A program made the position numbers and the translations under genes. 64,000 nt of DNA, from NCBI RefSeq assembly GCF_003054225.1, contig NZ_QBKQ01000001.1:1116001-1180000 (forward strand). Reading direction: 5' to 3'. The notes under the pieces are model-generated. The model had not been told where the DNA came from and did no database searches. It was given only the letters and a program-made list of their open reading frames with translations. Shown here piece after piece: positions 4,101-12,866 of this stretch. The first letter of the stretch is position 1; the number at the start of each line of letters is the position of its first letter. The DNA comes from Christiangramia gaetbulicola. GTDB taxonomy: Bacteria > Bacteroidota > Bacteroidia > Flavobacteriales > Flavobacteriaceae.

Positions 4101-4369
4101 ATAAAGGATTCGATCCTGAGACAGCGAGGAGGATGCAACAACTGCAATACGAATTGCTTAAATTCGAGAAGGCACGAAAACTTCAGGGAACCGATGATAA
4201 ACGAAAATCTGAAACAAACAGATTAGACTATGAGAACGGTCTTAACAATCAGATTGATAGGGCTAAAGAATATTTCAATTCTACTGAAATTTTAAACAGA
4301 CAAACCTTACCTTTGCGCCAAATTTACAAAGAGAAAGTAAAGGATTATTTTGGAAAAGGGAGAGATTAA
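1124..4369 (+). CDS. DUF4175-type membrane protein with long coiled coil
   Basis: Large membrane protein of unknown function, about 1081 residues. Hydrophobic segments near residues 22-50, 57-80 and 152-175 (counted from the TTG) anchor it. A mainly beta region covers roughly 180-480, and then comes a very charged Glu/Lys/Gln-rich coiled coil (about 490-770) and a Gln/Met-rich tail. This matches proteins annotated DUF4175 in Flavobacteriia. The start may be the TTG at 1118 or the ATG at 1124; I chose the ATG. It overlaps ybeY by 20 bases, so the two are probably co-transcribed and translationally linked. The extracytoplasmic mass and coiled coil suggest an envelope or scaffold role, but this is inference. 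Family name fairly sure, function unknown. Confidence 0.75.
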   Translation: MGNFGLVQQKLEAFIKKYYLNLILKGSILFLATGLLYFLLVVSLEYFLWLSTTGRSILFWLFILVEVLLLFNFVGIPLFKVLKISKGIDEFEASEIIGKHFPEVNDKLTNLLQLKNDSRQSDLLIASIDQRSKELTLVPFSGAIDLRENKKYLRYVVLPLLIILGLFAAGKAEVITKSFSRISDYNTTYLKPAPFQFIIKNDQLKVREGETLKLQVRTVGDYNPESVQIVLDGNENFMKQILPGIFEYSISGISEDLEFKLRSNEVSSGEYKVEVIMVPKLLNFEMDLDYPSYTGLNDEKLAGTGNITVPEGTKINWNFNTRNTDLIIFKIADSTIKVRAKDGKANFQKTLGSNLDYSVSSSNSLVKDFENLDYAVKVIKDQFPEIRVISEKDSLNSDIQYFKGEISDDYGLSRLELVYFTEETEEKPERLVIPVSKESYDEFHFSFPGNLQLKPGRSYNYFFRVYDNDAVNGSKSSRSATFSYRKKTLEELQYEQLQEQNDAIKNMGERLEEYEKSDEELKEISKLEKEKDELNYNERKKLEEFLKRQKKQNEMMKSYSEKLEKSLQKNDDQENSPMKEELKKRLENNEKRLEANEELLKELEEYSEKIQKEDLGKKLDELSKQNKNNQRNLEQLLELTKRYYVEEKKLKLGRDLEKLADEQEELSEKKDENTAEEQEELNKEFDNFREQMDELEKENEKLKQPQELDREEVEEESIQKDQKEATESLKQKNDSEAKPKQKDAAKKMKQMSQQMQQSSMAQQQEQLEADAETLRQILDNLIVFSFEQEDLLNEFKVIQQSNPRYAGRLKEQSNLRENFSHIDDSLYMLAMRNPMVNEVITDKLTNIEFDIEKSIERLSENEIPQGTSSQQYVVTGANDLANLLDQILGSMQQMMANPQSGNGKGGQEFQLQDIIEQQQQLSEKMKEKSDGEKEQKEGMRQSEGEGQSGELYEIYKEQQMLRMQMEQLMQENGMKSGDAAVEEMKRIEEQLLDKGFDPETARRMQQLQYELLKFEKARKLQGTDDKRKSETNRLDYENGLNNQIDRAKEYFNSTEILNRQTLPLRQIYKEKVKDYFGKGRD

Positions 4370-4784
4370 CTTTTTTAGTGAAAATGATTTTAAGCTCAAG
4401 CAGGAAAATGATTTTCGAAAATGGGTAGAGCGCGTCATAGAATCAGAAGATAAATATGTTGGTGACATCAATTTTATTTTTTGCGATGACGAATATTTAC
4501 TTGATATAAACGTAAAATATCTCGACCACGATACCTACACCGATATTATTAGTTTTGATAATGGGATAGGGAATACTTTACACGGAGACATTTTTATAAG
4601 CACCGAAAGGGTAGAGGAAAATGCTTCGAATTTCAACGTAGATTTTATAGAAGAATTAAAACGTGTCGTGATTCACGGCGTGTTGCATTTTTGCGGATAT
4701 CAGGATAAATCTGAAAGGGATAAGGAAATGATGCGACGCAAGGAAGAAGAAAAAATCAAATTGTTCCACGTGGAACAATCATAA
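4350..4784 (+). CDS. ybeY: Endoribonuclease YbeY
   Basis: Metal-dependent single-strand endoribonuclease used in 16S rRNA 3' maturation and ribosome quality control. The 144-residue protein has the family core: a DINFIFCDDEYLLDIN region, an HDTYTDIISF segment and the metal motif HGVLHFCGY. The classical motif is H-G-x-L-H-L-x-G-Y-D-H; here the first two histidines are present but the position of the third holds Asp (QD instead of DH), a form I recall from other Bacteroidota. The only practical start is TTG at 4350, since a stop lies just upstream in frame and no ATG is near. The gene overlaps the end of the DUF4175 gene, and its last codons (LFHVEQS) are formed by a parS-like palindrome. Identity is safe. 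Confidence 0.9.
   Translation: MEKGEINFFSENDFKLKQENDFRKWVERVIESEDKYVGDINFIFCDDEYLLDINVKYLDHDTYTDIISFDNGIGNTLHGDIFISTERVEENASNFNVDFIEELKRVVIHGVLHFCGYQDKSERDKEMMRRKEEEKIKLFHVEQS
4762..4777. promoter_or_regulatory. parS-like centromere site 1 (left of mnmG)
   Basis: TGTTCCACGTGGAACA, a perfect 16-base palindrome (18 bases with the flanking T and A). It matches the ParB-binding parS consensus TGTTnCACGTGnAACA and is the form used in Pseudomonas. It lies inside the last codons of ybeY, 23 bases before the mnmG start. An identical copy sits just after mnmG. Known biology: ParB loads at parS near the replication origin and acts in chromosome segregation. Not tested here: whether this organism's ParB binds it. 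Confidence 0.82.
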
Positions 4785-4799
4785 AAATTAGATCAGGAT

Positions 4800-6671
4800 A
4801 TGTTCGATAAGCAGTATGATGTTATTGTTGTTGGAGCGGGGCATGCCGGAAGTGAGGCAGCTGCTGCAGCCGCAAATATGGGTAGTAAAACCCTTCTTAT
4901 AACCATGAATCTTCAAAACATTGCTCAAATGAGTTGCAACCCTGCTATGGGTGGTATCGCCAAAGGGCAGATCGTGAGAGAGATCGATGCTATGGGAGGT
5001 TATAGTGGTATTATAAGTGATACCAGTGCTATCCAGTTCAAGATGCTTAATAAATCTAAAGGACCTGCTATGTGGAGTCCGAGGGTACAAAGCGACCGAA
5101 TGAGGTTTGCGGAGGATTGGAGGATCAAACTGGAGCAAACTCCAAACCTTGATTTTTATCAGGAAATGGTAGCTGGTCTAATTATAAAAAATGAAAAGGT
5201 CGTTGGAGTTCGTACTTCTCTCGGACTTGAAATAATGGCTAAATCTGTAGTATGTACCAATGGTACTTTTTTAAATGGATTGATCCATATTGGAGATAAA
5301 CAATTTGGGGGAGGTAGAGCAGGAGAAAGAGCCGCAACCGGAATCACTAAAGATCTAATTGATGTTGGTTTTGAAGCCGGCAGAATGAAGACAGGAACCC
5401 CACCAAGAGTAGATGGAAGATCACTGGATTATTCTAAAATGGTGGAGCAACCGGGAGATGATATTCCAGGGAAATTTTCATTTTCAGACGAGACTAAACC
5501 ACTTACTAAACAACGTTCCTGTCACATGACCTATACCTCTAATGAGGTGCATGAAATTCTTAAGGAAGGTTTCGATAGGTCTCCAATGTTTAACGGTAGA
5601 ATTAAAAGTATAGGACCAAGATATTGTCCTTCTATTGAGGATAAAATAAATCGTTTTGCAGATAAGGACAGGCATCAACTTTTCGTGGAGCCAGAAGGAT
5701 GGAATACGGTTGAAGTATATGTAAATGGATTCTCAACTTCGTTGCCAGAGGATGTTCAGTTTAAAGCTTTACGTTCTGTAGAAGGATTCGAAAATGTAAA
5801 ATTCTTCCGTCCGGGATATGCTATAGAATATGATTATTTTCCACCTACGCAGTTAAAGCATACCTTAGAAACTAAACTGGTAGAAGGTTTGTATTTTGCT
5901 GGACAGATCAACGGAACTACTGGTTATGAAGAAGCAGCCTGCCAGGGAATGATGGCTGGTATAAATGCTGCTTTAAAAGTTCAGGAAAGGGATGAGTTTA
6001 TCCTTAAACGTAATGAAGCATATATAGGTGTTCTTATAGATGATCTAATTACTAAAGGTACAGAAGAGCCATATAGAATGTTTACTTCCCGAGCAGAATA
6101 TAGAACTTTATTAAGACAGGATAATGCCGATTTCAGGTTAACCGAAAAGTCTTATAATTTAGGTCTTGCTTCTGAAGAGCGTATGCGTAAAATGGAACAG
6201 AAAAAAGAGAAGTCTTTTAAATTTGTTCAGTTTTTGAAAGATCTTAGTGTGGTTCCTGAAGAAGCGAATCCGGTTCTTGAGAAAAGAAAATCTTCTCCAA
6301 TGAAACAAAGTGATAAGGTCTTTAAAGTTTTTTCCAGGCCACAGATCACCATGGAAGATGTGAAGAATTTTAGTGGAGTAGAGGAGTTCATTTCTGAAAA
6401 TGATCTCGATGAAGAGATGATCGAACAAACCGAAATTCAGGTGAAATATTCCGGATATATTCAGAAGGAAAAAAATAATGCCGATAAGTTGAACCGTTTG
6501 GAGGATATCAGAATTCCGAATAATTTTGATTACTCAAGGATCAAATCCATGTCTTACGAAGCGAGGGAAAAATTGAAAAAGGTTCAGCCAACAACGATTT
6601 CTCAAGCATCAAGAATCAGTGGAGTTAGTCCGAATGATATTTCGGTTTTACTGGTTTATATGGGTAGATAA
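4800..6671 (+). CDS. mnmG: tRNA uridine-5-carboxymethylaminomethyl modification enzyme MnmG
   Basis: FAD-dependent enzyme that, with the GTPase MnmE, builds the carboxymethylaminomethyl group on U34 of certain tRNAs. The protein is 623 residues, the normal length. The FAD-binding GxGxxG motif GAGHAGSEAA starts at residue 12. Family signatures include the region GPRYCPSIEDKI followed by a QLFVEPEGWNT stretch, and GQINGTTGYEEAACQG for the second nucleotide-binding part. The C-terminal helical domain that meets MnmE and tRNA is present. Start ATG at 4800. mnmG (old name gidA) often lies near the origin in other bacteria; here it is framed by two parS-like sites, with no parA or parB in the window. 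Confidence 0.97.
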   Translation: MFDKQYDVIVVGAGHAGSEAAAAAANMGSKTLLITMNLQNIAQMSCNPAMGGIAKGQIVREIDAMGGYSGIISDTSAIQFKMLNKSKGPAMWSPRVQSDRMRFAEDWRIKLEQTPNLDFYQEMVAGLIIKNEKVVGVRTSLGLEIMAKSVVCTNGTFLNGLIHIGDKQFGGGRAGERAATGITKDLIDVGFEAGRMKTGTPPRVDGRSLDYSKMVEQPGDDIPGKFSFSDETKPLTKQRSCHMTYTSNEVHEILKEGFDRSPMFNGRIKSIGPRYCPSIEDKINRFADKDRHQLFVEPEGWNTVEVYVNGFSTSLPEDVQFKALRSVEGFENVKFFRPGYAIEYDYFPPTQLKHTLETKLVEGLYFAGQINGTTGYEEAACQGMMAGINAALKVQERDEFILKRNEAYIGVLIDDLITKGTEEPYRMFTSRAEYRTLLRQDNADFRLTEKSYNLGLASEERMRKMEQKKEKSFKFVQFLKDLSVVPEEANPVLEKRKSSPMKQSDKVFKVFSRPQITMEDVKNFSGVEEFISENDLDEEMIEQTEIQVKYSGYIQKEKNNADKLNRLEDIRIPNNFDYSRIKSMSYEAREKLKKVQPTTISQASRISGVSPNDISVLLVYMGR

Positions 6672-6679
6672 TTTTCCAA

Positions 6680-6695
6680 TGTTCCACGTGGAACA
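6680..6695. promoter_or_regulatory. parS-like centromere site 2 (right of mnmG)
   Basis: TGTTCCACGTGGAACA again, identical to the copy at 4762-4777 and 1918 bases from it. This one is intergenic, eight bases after the mnmG stop and 14 bases before the TTG start of the methyltransferase. Two perfect 16-base palindromes around one gene cannot reasonably be chance, and both match the parS consensus. It could also affect transcription of the methyltransferase if ParB spreads from it, but that is inference. Confidence 0.82.
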
Positions 6696-6709: not shown

Positions 6710-7579
6710 TTGATTACAACAGAAAAAAAATACAGCACTCAGATCCAGGATGAGCCAAAACTGGTTTGCAAAGATCATTTGGTAACTGGAGAAGAATTTC
6801 AAATTTCAGAATACGAAAATGGAATTCTAAGAACAAAACCTGTTCCTTCAGATCTTGGTAAATATTACGAGAGTGAAAATTATATTTCTCACAGTGATTC
6901 CAAAAGCGGTTTACAGGATAAGATTTATCAACTTGTAAAATCTCACATGCTTTCTAAAAAAGCGAAGTGGGTGAGAAGGTATTTTAAGCAGGGAGATATT
7001 TTAGATTTTGGAGCGGGTACCGGAGAGTTTTTAAATAAGATGAAAAAGTTCCTCTGGAATGTAGACGGAGTAGAGCCAAACAAAACTGCCCGGGATCTTG
7101 CCATCTTAAAAGGGCTGAATTTAAAACCCGATCTTTCAGAACTCAGGATCAAGAAATTTGATGTTATAAGCTTGTGGCATGTTTTGGAACATCTGCCAGA
7201 TCTGGAAAAAAAGATCCAGGAATTTTATGATCTTTTAAACGAGGATGGAATTTTGATCATTGCCGTTCCTAATCATAGATCTTATGATGCGGAATTTTAT
7301 AAAGAGGATTGGGCAGGCTGGGATGTGCCCAGACACCTCTGGCATTTTTCCAGAGAAGGACTTACCGAAAAGTTTTATGATTTCAATTTTGAACTGGTAG
7401 ATGAAAAGCCTTTAAAATTTGATTCTTATTACGTAAGCCTTTTAAGCGAAAAAAATAAAAACTCTTCAACCAATCCTTTAAATGCATTCTATCGGGGATT
7501 CGTCTCTAACCAGAGAGCCAGGAAGACTGGAGAGTATTCTTCTATCGCTTATTTCTTTAAAAAGACACCCAAAACTTAA
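6710..7579 (+). CDS. Class I SAM-dependent methyltransferase
   Basis: Small-molecule or surface-glycan methyltransferase of the PF13489 type, 289 residues. The SAM-binding motif I is DFGAGTGEFL near residue 100, followed by the acidic loop VEPN, motif IV at FDVISLWHVLEHL and the segment WAGWDVPRHLWHF typical of this subfamily. The N-terminal 60 residues resemble the zinc-ribbon-less entry seen in sugar-modifying members. The start is taken as TTG at 6710 because no ATG lies in frame between the upstream stop at 6665 and this point. It follows mnmG by 38 bases that contain the second parS-like site. Substrate unknown. Confidence 0.82.
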   Translation: MITTEKKYSTQIQDEPKLVCKDHLVTGEEFQISEYENGILRTKPVPSDLGKYYESENYISHSDSKSGLQDKIYQLVKSHMLSKKAKWVRRYFKQGDILDFGAGTGEFLNKMKKFLWNVDGVEPNKTARDLAILKGLNLKPDLSELRIKKFDVISLWHVLEHLPDLEKKIQEFYDLLNEDGILIIAVPNHRSYDAEFYKEDWAGWDVPRHLWHFSREGLTEKFYDFNFELVDEKPLKFDSYYVSLLSEKNKNSSTNPLNAFYRGFVSNQRARKTGEYSSIAYFFKKTPKT

Positions 7580-11279: not shown

Positions 11280-12866
11280 ATGCTGAAACGAAAATATTTT
11301 ATGTTATTGCTCCTTGCCGGGATGTCTACCCTGGCACAGGAAAAGAAGAACAAGGAAAGGGTTGAAAAGGCTAATTTCAGGGTTCAGATATTTCAAAAGA
11401 GCGATGACACAGAGATCAAACTCGCAGAGCCTGATCCTGAATTTAGAGACAAACTGCCAATTTCTGCAGCAATTAGAGATTCCTCGAAGGTAAAACTGAA
11501 GGATCTCCCCCATGCAAAAACGATAGATTCGTTATGGAAGCTTGAACTTACTAATTCAGATCTTTTCGAGGATATGCAAAAAAGCATTCGCGAACAGGAT
11601 TATGAAGAGGTGGTCTATAAAGAACTTCCAACAGATACTTTAAAAGCCCGACTGGCAAAATTAAATGCCAGAACGCCTTTTAATATTGAATACAATCCAA
11701 TCCTGGAAAGTGTTATAAAGTCTTACCTGAAGCGAAATAAGCAGGGTATGGAGCGCCTAATGGCCTTGAGCACCTATTATTTCCCAATGTTCGAACAGGA
11801 ACTGGATAAATATGACATTCCTTTAGAGATCAAATACCTTGCGATCGTAGAATCTGCCCTAAACCCAAAGGCTAAATCCAGAGTTGGAGCTACGGGACTT
11901 TGGCAGTTCATGTTTACCACTGGTAAAATGCACGGCCTGGATGTAAGTTCTTATGTAGACGAACGTATGGATCCGGAAAGGTCTACTGAGGCTGCTGCAC
12001 AATACCTTGCCAGCCTGTATAAGGTTTTTGGAGATTGGGACCTGGTACTGGCTTCTTATAATTCTGGCCCGGGAAATGTTTCCAAGGCTATTCGAAGAAG
12101 CGGTGGATCTACAGATTACTGGCAATTAAGGAGGTATCTTCCACGTGAAACAGCAGGATATGTTCCTGCATTTCTGGCTACTATGTACCTTTTTGAATAT
12201 GCAGATGAGCATAATTTCCAGCCTAAGAATCCAGATGTGGTCTATTTTGAAACCGACACCATCCAGGTAAAACAATTACTTACTTTCGACCAGATCTCCA
12301 AGGTAACAGGTGTGGAAAATGAAATGCTTCAGTTTTTAAATCCAAGCTATAAGCTAGGGATCATTCCGTTTGTGGAAGATGAAAAATATAGCCTAAGGTT
12401 ACCAAAACCTGCTTCAGGAAAATTCGTGAGCAACGAAAGCGCCATCTATAATTTCGCTGAAACTCAAATAGCCGAGGAAAAGAAAGAACTTCCTAAATAC
12501 GTAGAGACTGAAGATCGTATTCGCTATAGAGTAAAAAGCGGTGATTACCTCGGGAAAATCGCAGAACGTTATGGAGTAGGAGTTAGCAGCATCAGGAGAT
12601 GGAATAATATGCGTAGCAATAACATCAGGGTAGGGCAATATCTTACGATCTACCCACGGAAACCGGTAGAGGTTGCCAGTAGCAAAAAGGCCTCTGAAAC
12701 TAAGAAGAGTTCAAATCCCAGATTCTATACGGTGAAAAGTGGAGACTCACTTTGGAGTATTTCTAAAAAGTTCCCGGGCGTTACGGTACAGAATTTGCGG
12801 TCATGGAATGATATGAACTCAAATAGTCTTAAACCGGGCATGAAAATTAAGATTTCCAAAGGTTAA
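11280..12866 (+). CDS. LysM lytic transglycosylase, MltD-like
   Basis: Cleaves peptidoglycan glycan strands in the periplasm, leaving 1,6-anhydro ends. The protein is 528 residues: a signal peptide (about 1-20), a linker, an SLT goose-lysozyme-type domain (about 180-310) and two LysM repeats at the C-terminus (about 415-462 and 480-526). The catalytic glutamate sits in AIVESALNPKA, followed by GATGLWQFM and the ASYNSGPGNV segment that mark family 1 transglycosylases of the MltD kind. The LysM units begin RVKSGDYLGKI and TVKSGDSLWSI. It precedes the DUF4837 lipoprotein by 23 bases. Very similar in layout to E. coli MltD, which however is a lipoprotein. Confidence 0.92.
   Translation: MLKRKYFMLLLLAGMSTLAQEKKNKERVEKANFRVQIFQKSDDTEIKLAEPDPEFRDKLPISAAIRDSSKVKLKDLPHAKTIDSLWKLELTNSDLFEDMQKSIREQDYEEVVYKELPTDTLKARLAKLNARTPFNIEYNPILESVIKSYLKRNKQGMERLMALSTYYFPMFEQELDKYDIPLEIKYLAIVESALNPKAKSRVGATGLWQFMFTTGKMHGLDVSSYVDERMDPERSTEAAAQYLASLYKVFGDWDLVLASYNSGPGNVSKAIRRSGGSTDYWQLRRYLPRETAGYVPAFLATMYLFEYADEHNFQPKNPDVVYFETDTIQVKQLLTFDQISKVTGVENEMLQFLNPSYKLGIIPFVEDEKYSLRLPKPASGKFVSNESAIYNFAETQIAEEKKELPKYVETEDRIRYRVKSGDYLGKIAERYGVGVSSIRRWNNMRSNNIRVGQYLTIYPRKPVEVASSKKASETKKSSNPRFYTVKSGDSLWSISKKFPGVTVQNLRSWNDMNSNSLKPGMKIKISKG

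Follow-up and report, generated by a model that had tools for sequence, protein, structure and literature searches.

The mnmG locus and its two palindromes

The window, meaning the whole stretch of 64,000 bases analysed here (C1:1,116,001-1,180,000), belongs to a genome (G000) of 3,643,289 bases in eight contigs. Near its left end lies the tRNA-modification gene mnmG (gidA), bracketed by two copies of one 16-bp palindrome. The features of the locus, in window positions, are as follows.

4350..4784, + strand: ybeY (TIGR00043), whose 3' end holds putative parS site 1
4762..4777, no strand: putative parS site 1, perfect 16-bp palindrome TGTTCCACGTGGAACA, in the 3' end of the ybeY frame
4800..6671, + strand: mnmG (gidA), TIGR00136 equivalog at 858.7 bits, bracketed by the two sites
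6680..6695, no strand: putative parS site 2, perfect 16-bp palindrome TGTTCCACGTGGAACA
6710..7579, + strand: methyltransferase-domain gene, 3' of site 2
12137..12152, no strand: third parS-like place TCTTCCACGTGAAACA, with 2 mismatches, in the LPRET codons of an SLT/LysM transglycosylase

The sequence-only reading had described the palindromes as identical, as matching the parS consensus and as framing mnmG, and each of these descriptions held: both copies are exact, perfect 16-mers, they differ from the consensus TGTTTCACGTGAAACA given in the cited part of PMC7383237 at positions 5 and 12 only, and the gene between them is confirmed as mnmG by TIGR00136. Site 1 is not intergenic, as it overlaps the 3' end of ybeY; its first base is 38 bases ahead of the mnmG start codon. 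Site 2 lies between genes and begins 8 bases beyond the mnmG stop codon. Both sites also fit the degenerate form TGTTNCACGTGNAACA, which we take to be that of the chromosomal parS of ParABS systems. Among named proteins, those closest to this MnmG come from Christiangramia/Gramella (94–96% identity), and the genome therefore probably belongs to that genus.

Matches to the palindrome are rare. Three were found in the window with up to 3 mismatches, against a mean of 0.12 in shuffled sequence, and with up to 2 mismatches there are three places in the whole genome, all within 7.4 kb of one another, so that the copies are few and confined to one chromosomal region, with none scattered away from the locus. 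The reversed pattern, scanned as a control over the same 3.64 Mb with up to 2 mismatches, gave no match. The third place lies 5.4 kb from the main pair and was dropped as independent evidence for parS because it spells the LPRET codons of the SLT/LysM protein; it is probably constrained by the protein and doubtful as a parS site. A parS-like word inside PRET codons also recurs in 13 loci of relatives, mostly 6–9 kb downstream of the mnmG start.

Conservation of the sites in relatives

A comparison of related mnmG loci, which the sequence-only reading had proposed, brought out a conservation that the reading itself had missed. The best 80 of at least 572 confirmed loci were compared; several come from the same genus and the 80 are therefore not independent. 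A site was accepted at up to 300 bases upstream of mnmG or up to 700 bases past its stop, with no more than 2 mismatches to TGTTYCACGTGRAACA. On this basis a parS-like site is present on each flank of mnmG in 80 of these 80 loci. The upstream sites are exact in 75 and carry one mismatch in 5, and the downstream sites are exact in 46, with one mismatch in 30 and two in 4. With up to one mismatch, 172 sites fall in the mnmG zone of these loci vs 16 in the remaining 1.45 Mb, PRET codons holding 13 of the 16, and the reversed pattern gave no matches in the 80 loci.

At both sites, 12 of the 16 positions never vary; the variable ones are positions 5 and 12 and both ends. The sites were chosen as best matches, which favours conservation, and mismatches were permitted anywhere yet occur at the two ends only. 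The bases flanking the sites carry about 0.1–0.8 bits, that is, the core is kept and the flanks diverge. Site 1 lies within the upstream (ybeY) frame in 23 of the loci and after it in 57, and the 12 positions are invariant whether or not there is overlap with ybeY; protein coding is therefore no explanation of site 1. Judged from these alignments, it is selection on the DNA itself that preserves the sites. That the 16-mers owe their conservation only to coding, to repeats, or to chance deserves next to no credence: it might draw on the position of site 1 within ybeY in this genome, and on the third place, which is accounted for by its LPRET codons, but for sites 1 and 2 it is largely refuted by the intergenic position of site 2 here, by the 57 loci in which site 1 follows the upstream frame, and by flanks that diverge around a core that does not.

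In 68 of the 80 loci site 1 starts 21–40 bases before the mnmG start, a spacing that would suit operators of a transcription factor controlling mnmG or its operon in place of a centromere. We consider this very improbable, however, as there is a downstream site too in every one of the 80 loci, and several Aquimarina loci (L020, L021, L023, L024, L025, L031, L057, and L083) have two or three copies upstream of mnmG. The sequence is moreover that of the parS consensus in PMC7383237, as far as cited above, except at the two positions named, the LPRET codons hold the only further match in the genome at up to 2 mismatches, and the locus fits a switch in skew, as described below.

Wider surveys of the family and the phylum counted sites anywhere in the genome, with up to one mismatch. 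With one genome taken per genus for 149 genera of the family, at least one site was found in 148 genera and at least two in 133, the one genome with no site within 1 mismatch being G099; the reversed control matched once or twice in 21 of the 149 and nowhere in the remaining genomes. In the phylum-wide set of 296 genomes a site is present in 273, including 31 of 32 from the same family (G232 has none within 1 mismatch) and all 6 from a sister family. Among 25 loci from other families of the class, 18 have mnmG no more than 1.5 kb from the best site; the other 7 belong to families f5 and f9.

ParA and ParB

The absence of parA and parB from the window, remarked upon in the sequence-only reading, is borne out for parB, and a profile search shows that the genome does not lack them. 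The single genome-wide match to ParB_N is on contig C2, directly after a ParA-type ATPase, and since it is on another contig parB lies outside the window. The genome thus has one cognate ParA-ParB pair, and the ParB has the motifs expected of a parS-binding protein. Its best solved relatives are ParB/Spo0J proteins, and it carries R..G together with GERRYRA and ENIQRQDLDPIE, two motifs which presumably have a role in CTP binding. Alignment with Spo0J by eye places R and G, both kept, at two specificity positions and Y and K at the two variable ones; the R and G are described as absolutely conserved in ParB in the relevant part of PMC7383237. Among ten ParB loci checked (this genome and nine others), R..G is present in six, with no match in L129 and L134 and the helix motif missed in L132 and L133.

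One position stands apart from this otherwise expected set of residues. The residue equivalent to Caulobacter S172 is N in the ParB of this genome (L004:1384-2283) and K in the five relatives in which the helix was recovered (L126, L127, L128, L130, and L131); position 172 is given as a serine conserved in ParB and Noc in the same part of PMC7383237.

The Noc-NBS system of Firmicutes likewise pairs a protein of the ParB fold with a 16-bp palindrome, and Noc-binding sites were considered as an identity for the two palindromes. This was ruled out, as NBS is TATTTCCCGGGAAATA in the cited part of PMC7383237 and differs from the sites here, and the only ParB_N protein of the genome scores below the Noc cut-off, with R and G kept at the switch positions.

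Position of the locus relative to the origin

The position of the origin was assessed by GC skew in six single-contig relatives (G017, G045, G100, G115, G120, and G136; of nine such genomes, G011, G016, and G033 were left out), each sampled in 14–20 stretches of 12–15 kb. Because raw GC skew tracks gene strand in the samples, it was not relied on as the main measure. The corrected skew used instead compares G with C at 4-fold-degenerate codon positions after subtraction of the average coding-strand bias.

The signs of the corrected skew fit an origin at parS in 20 of 20 samples in G045, 18 of 20 in G136, 17 of 20 in both G120 and G100, and 15 of 20 in G115, with permutation values of 0.0001, 0.0002, 0.0004, 0.0006, and 0.016, respectively. 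In G017 the fit is 7 of 14, with a permutation value of 0.19. The best-fitting switch lies 2, 4, and 9 kb from parS in G120, G100, and G045, where samples are more than 100 kb apart and the true resolution is therefore of that order, and 0.05–0.08 of the genome from parS in G017, G115, and G136 (0.08 in the latter two). On the contig that holds the window, C1, all 8 samples from the first 1.0 Mb have a negative corrected skew (barely so in the first, at −0.005); the sign is mixed around 1.08–1.10 Mb and mostly positive beyond about 1.1 Mb (−0.010 at 1.36 Mb), with parS at 1.12 Mb. Samples from C2, an unplaced contig, show no clear pattern.

An origin at or near the mnmG/parS locus is therefore supported by corrected skew in five of the six relatives, and is supported on the genome's own contig, less sharply than in the relatives. 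This agrees with the proposal of the sequence-only reading that the window lies in an origin-proximal centromere. Of the two landmarks that it would have used as a check, the skew switch is at or near parS in those five relatives, whereas dnaA is far off, at 0.28–0.49 of the chromosome from parS in the six; parB is 0.18–0.33 of the chromosome away. Closeness to the origin, read here from GC skew only, is usual for parS, at which ParB recruits SMC (PMC7333895, in the part cited).

The gene dnaA is the usual marker of the origin. The records of G115, G120, G100, and G011 begin close to it, with base 1 no more than about 1 kb away, and a canonical DnaA-box cluster was not found near mnmG, all of which would suit an origin at dnaA and a genuine parS locus far from it. 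The skew makes this arrangement improbable: a dnaA-centred origin scores negatively in six of six genomes and a parS-centred one positively in six of six, weakly in G017, and the course of the skew along C1 points the same way. An origin that is not always at dnaA has also been described in gut species (PMC10197239, in part). In the reduced Blattabacterium genome Bge, from which dnaA and gidA are both absent according to the cited part of PMC2768785, the origin was placed in dapB by GC skew.

A candidate origin between rpiB and rnr

With the origin taken to lie at or near parS, a more precise candidate is found just outside the window.

C1:1,106,434-1,107,563: rpiB-rnr gap, divergent and AT-rich, about 9 kb left of the window, about 14 kb upstream; candidate oriC

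Of 12 genomes examined, 8 have the gap, with 70–82% A+T; in G017, G079, G087, and G144 the fetched stretches did not show it. It is in none of the 80 mnmG loci, which reach at most 10 kb upstream. Fine minima of the corrected skew, sought only in stretches of 80–165 kb chosen around parS, lie 8–51 kb from parS. The minimum is 0.6 kb from the gap and 7.8 kb from parS in G115; the corresponding values are 1.1 and 17.2 kb in G136, 1.2 and 50.9 kb in G100, 6.9 and 7.8 kb in G000, 12.2 and 15.4 kb in G045, and 17.4 and 15.5 kb in G120. The minimum is thus closer to the gap than to parS in five of six genomes, G120 being the exception, with wide bootstrap ranges. In G100 the gap and parS are 52 kb apart and the minimum follows the gap, but the stretch ends about 10 kb from it. 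Fine minima of the raw skew match the corrected ones in G100 and are about 24–37 kb off in G045, G136, and G000.

The gaps share a conserved AT-rich element. The DnaA-box-like motif TTATNMACA, looser than the canonical box, occurs 18 times in the eight gaps (at most the first 700 bases of each) against about 1.9 expected, an enrichment that is post hoc, the motif having been picked after the alignment was viewed. Canonical DnaA boxes (TTWTNCACA) number 14 in 165 kb of this genome, with no three within 600 bases, and no three boxes lie within 500 bases in any of the 80 mnmG loci. The rpiB-rnr gap may accordingly be regarded as a candidate oriC, a lead and not a proof.

SMC-ScpAB in the order

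ScpA was found in 245 of the 296 phylum genomes. Among the matches listed, it is present in none of 38 genomes of the order (32 from the family and 6 from the sister family) vs 245 of 258 others, leaving 13 genomes outside the order without it. The SMC hinge and ScpB were found in none of 17 genomes of the order vs 6 of 6 others. As to the controls, the ScpA and ScpB models found Caulobacter and the hinge model missed it, a species which presumably has SMC. No ScpA, ScpB, or hinge was found in Bacteroides ihuae, also a control, and the absence is therefore not unique to the order.

Among the SMC_N matches listed, the best frames of the order are of about 550 and 360 residues, lengths that we take to be typical of RecN and RecF, vs about 1200 residues in four genomes outside the order. 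Weak SMC_N matches do occur in long frames in G017 (1232 aa at 28.7 bits) and G160 (1012 aa at 30 bits). These searches suggest an apparent loss of SMC-ScpAB in the order, and a centre at which ParB loads SMC would in that case be without SMC-ScpAB here. As the searched genomes of the order yielded no SMC hinge, ScpA, or ScpB, ParB probably acts via ParA, perhaps also with another partner, and not by loading SMC-ScpAB.

Interpretation

It is very probable, from the sequence evidence taken together, that the two palindromes serve as chromosomal parS in a ParABS system and together make up the origin-near centromere of this flavobacterial chromosome. By analogy with established ParB biology, dimers of ParB encoded by the parAB operon elsewhere on the chromosome would bind each 16-mer, take up CTP, and form closed clamps that slide along the flanking DNA to cover mnmG and its neighbors. 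ParA would pull the newly copied pair of ParB complexes apart. A broader reading, towards which we lean by a small margin, is that a parS pair anchored on mnmG is the centromere of the Flavobacteriaceae, and probably of much of the class, with the origin at the rpiB-rnr gap, dnaA up to half a chromosome away, and no SMC-ScpAB in the order, segregation being left to ParA-ParB alone or to a condensin-like partner. The reason that it is mnmG that lies between the sites is likely to be an old linkage of the origin with mnmG, which would have been kept while dnaA and parAB moved off.

The motif itself is an ordinary parS, and what is unusual is the setting, that is, an origin-near pair around mnmG, unlinked from dnaA and parAB, in an order in which SMC-ScpAB was not found. 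The ParABS systems of Bacillus subtilis and Caulobacter share the 16-bp palindrome TGTTTCACGTGAAACA (with C and G at positions 5 and 12 here), the ParA-ParB operon, a ParB with family motifs and R..G, and sites near the origin. They differ in that here the two main sites bracket mnmG, parAB and dnaA are far from parS (as measured in the six relatives), and searches of the order found no SMC hinge, ScpA, or ScpB.

Another parallel is offered by the parS clusters of gut Bacteroidetes. In the cited part of PMC10197239, parS was found by consensus in twelve mouse-gut bacteria, and the origin was taken as the GC-skew shift nearest the parS cluster, in agreement with read coverage; parS therefore coincides with the shift, having been used to choose it, and dnaA does not always do so. 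The two Bacteroidetes of that study, Bacteroides caecimuris and Muribaculum intestinale, are described there as having no known condensin, which is similar to the order considered here, whereas most other members of the phylum searched here have ScpA. The pair around mnmG is seen here in many relatives, whereas mnmG is unmentioned in that part of PMC10197239. In mostly open literature, no title or abstract was found on parS bracketing mnmG or on the loss of SMC-ScpAB in this order, though Livny et al. (2007) may list flavobacterial parS sites.

If this interpretation is true, one motif would mark the true origin region in a large environmental group in which dnaA misleads, and genome maps, growth-rate estimates from read depth, and replichore studies would be wrong where they take dnaA as their start. 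The group would also offer a natural test of the role of ParB-parS without SMC-ScpAB, and it raises the question of what holds a pair of sites in place around a single tRNA-modification gene. The number of sites does vary within the family: in the 17 surveyed genomes of genus g103 (G102, G171, G309, G313, G344, G360, G382, and others) there are 3–10 parS-like sites with up to one mismatch vs the more common two or so, and the surplus is perhaps a local expansion of the centromere.
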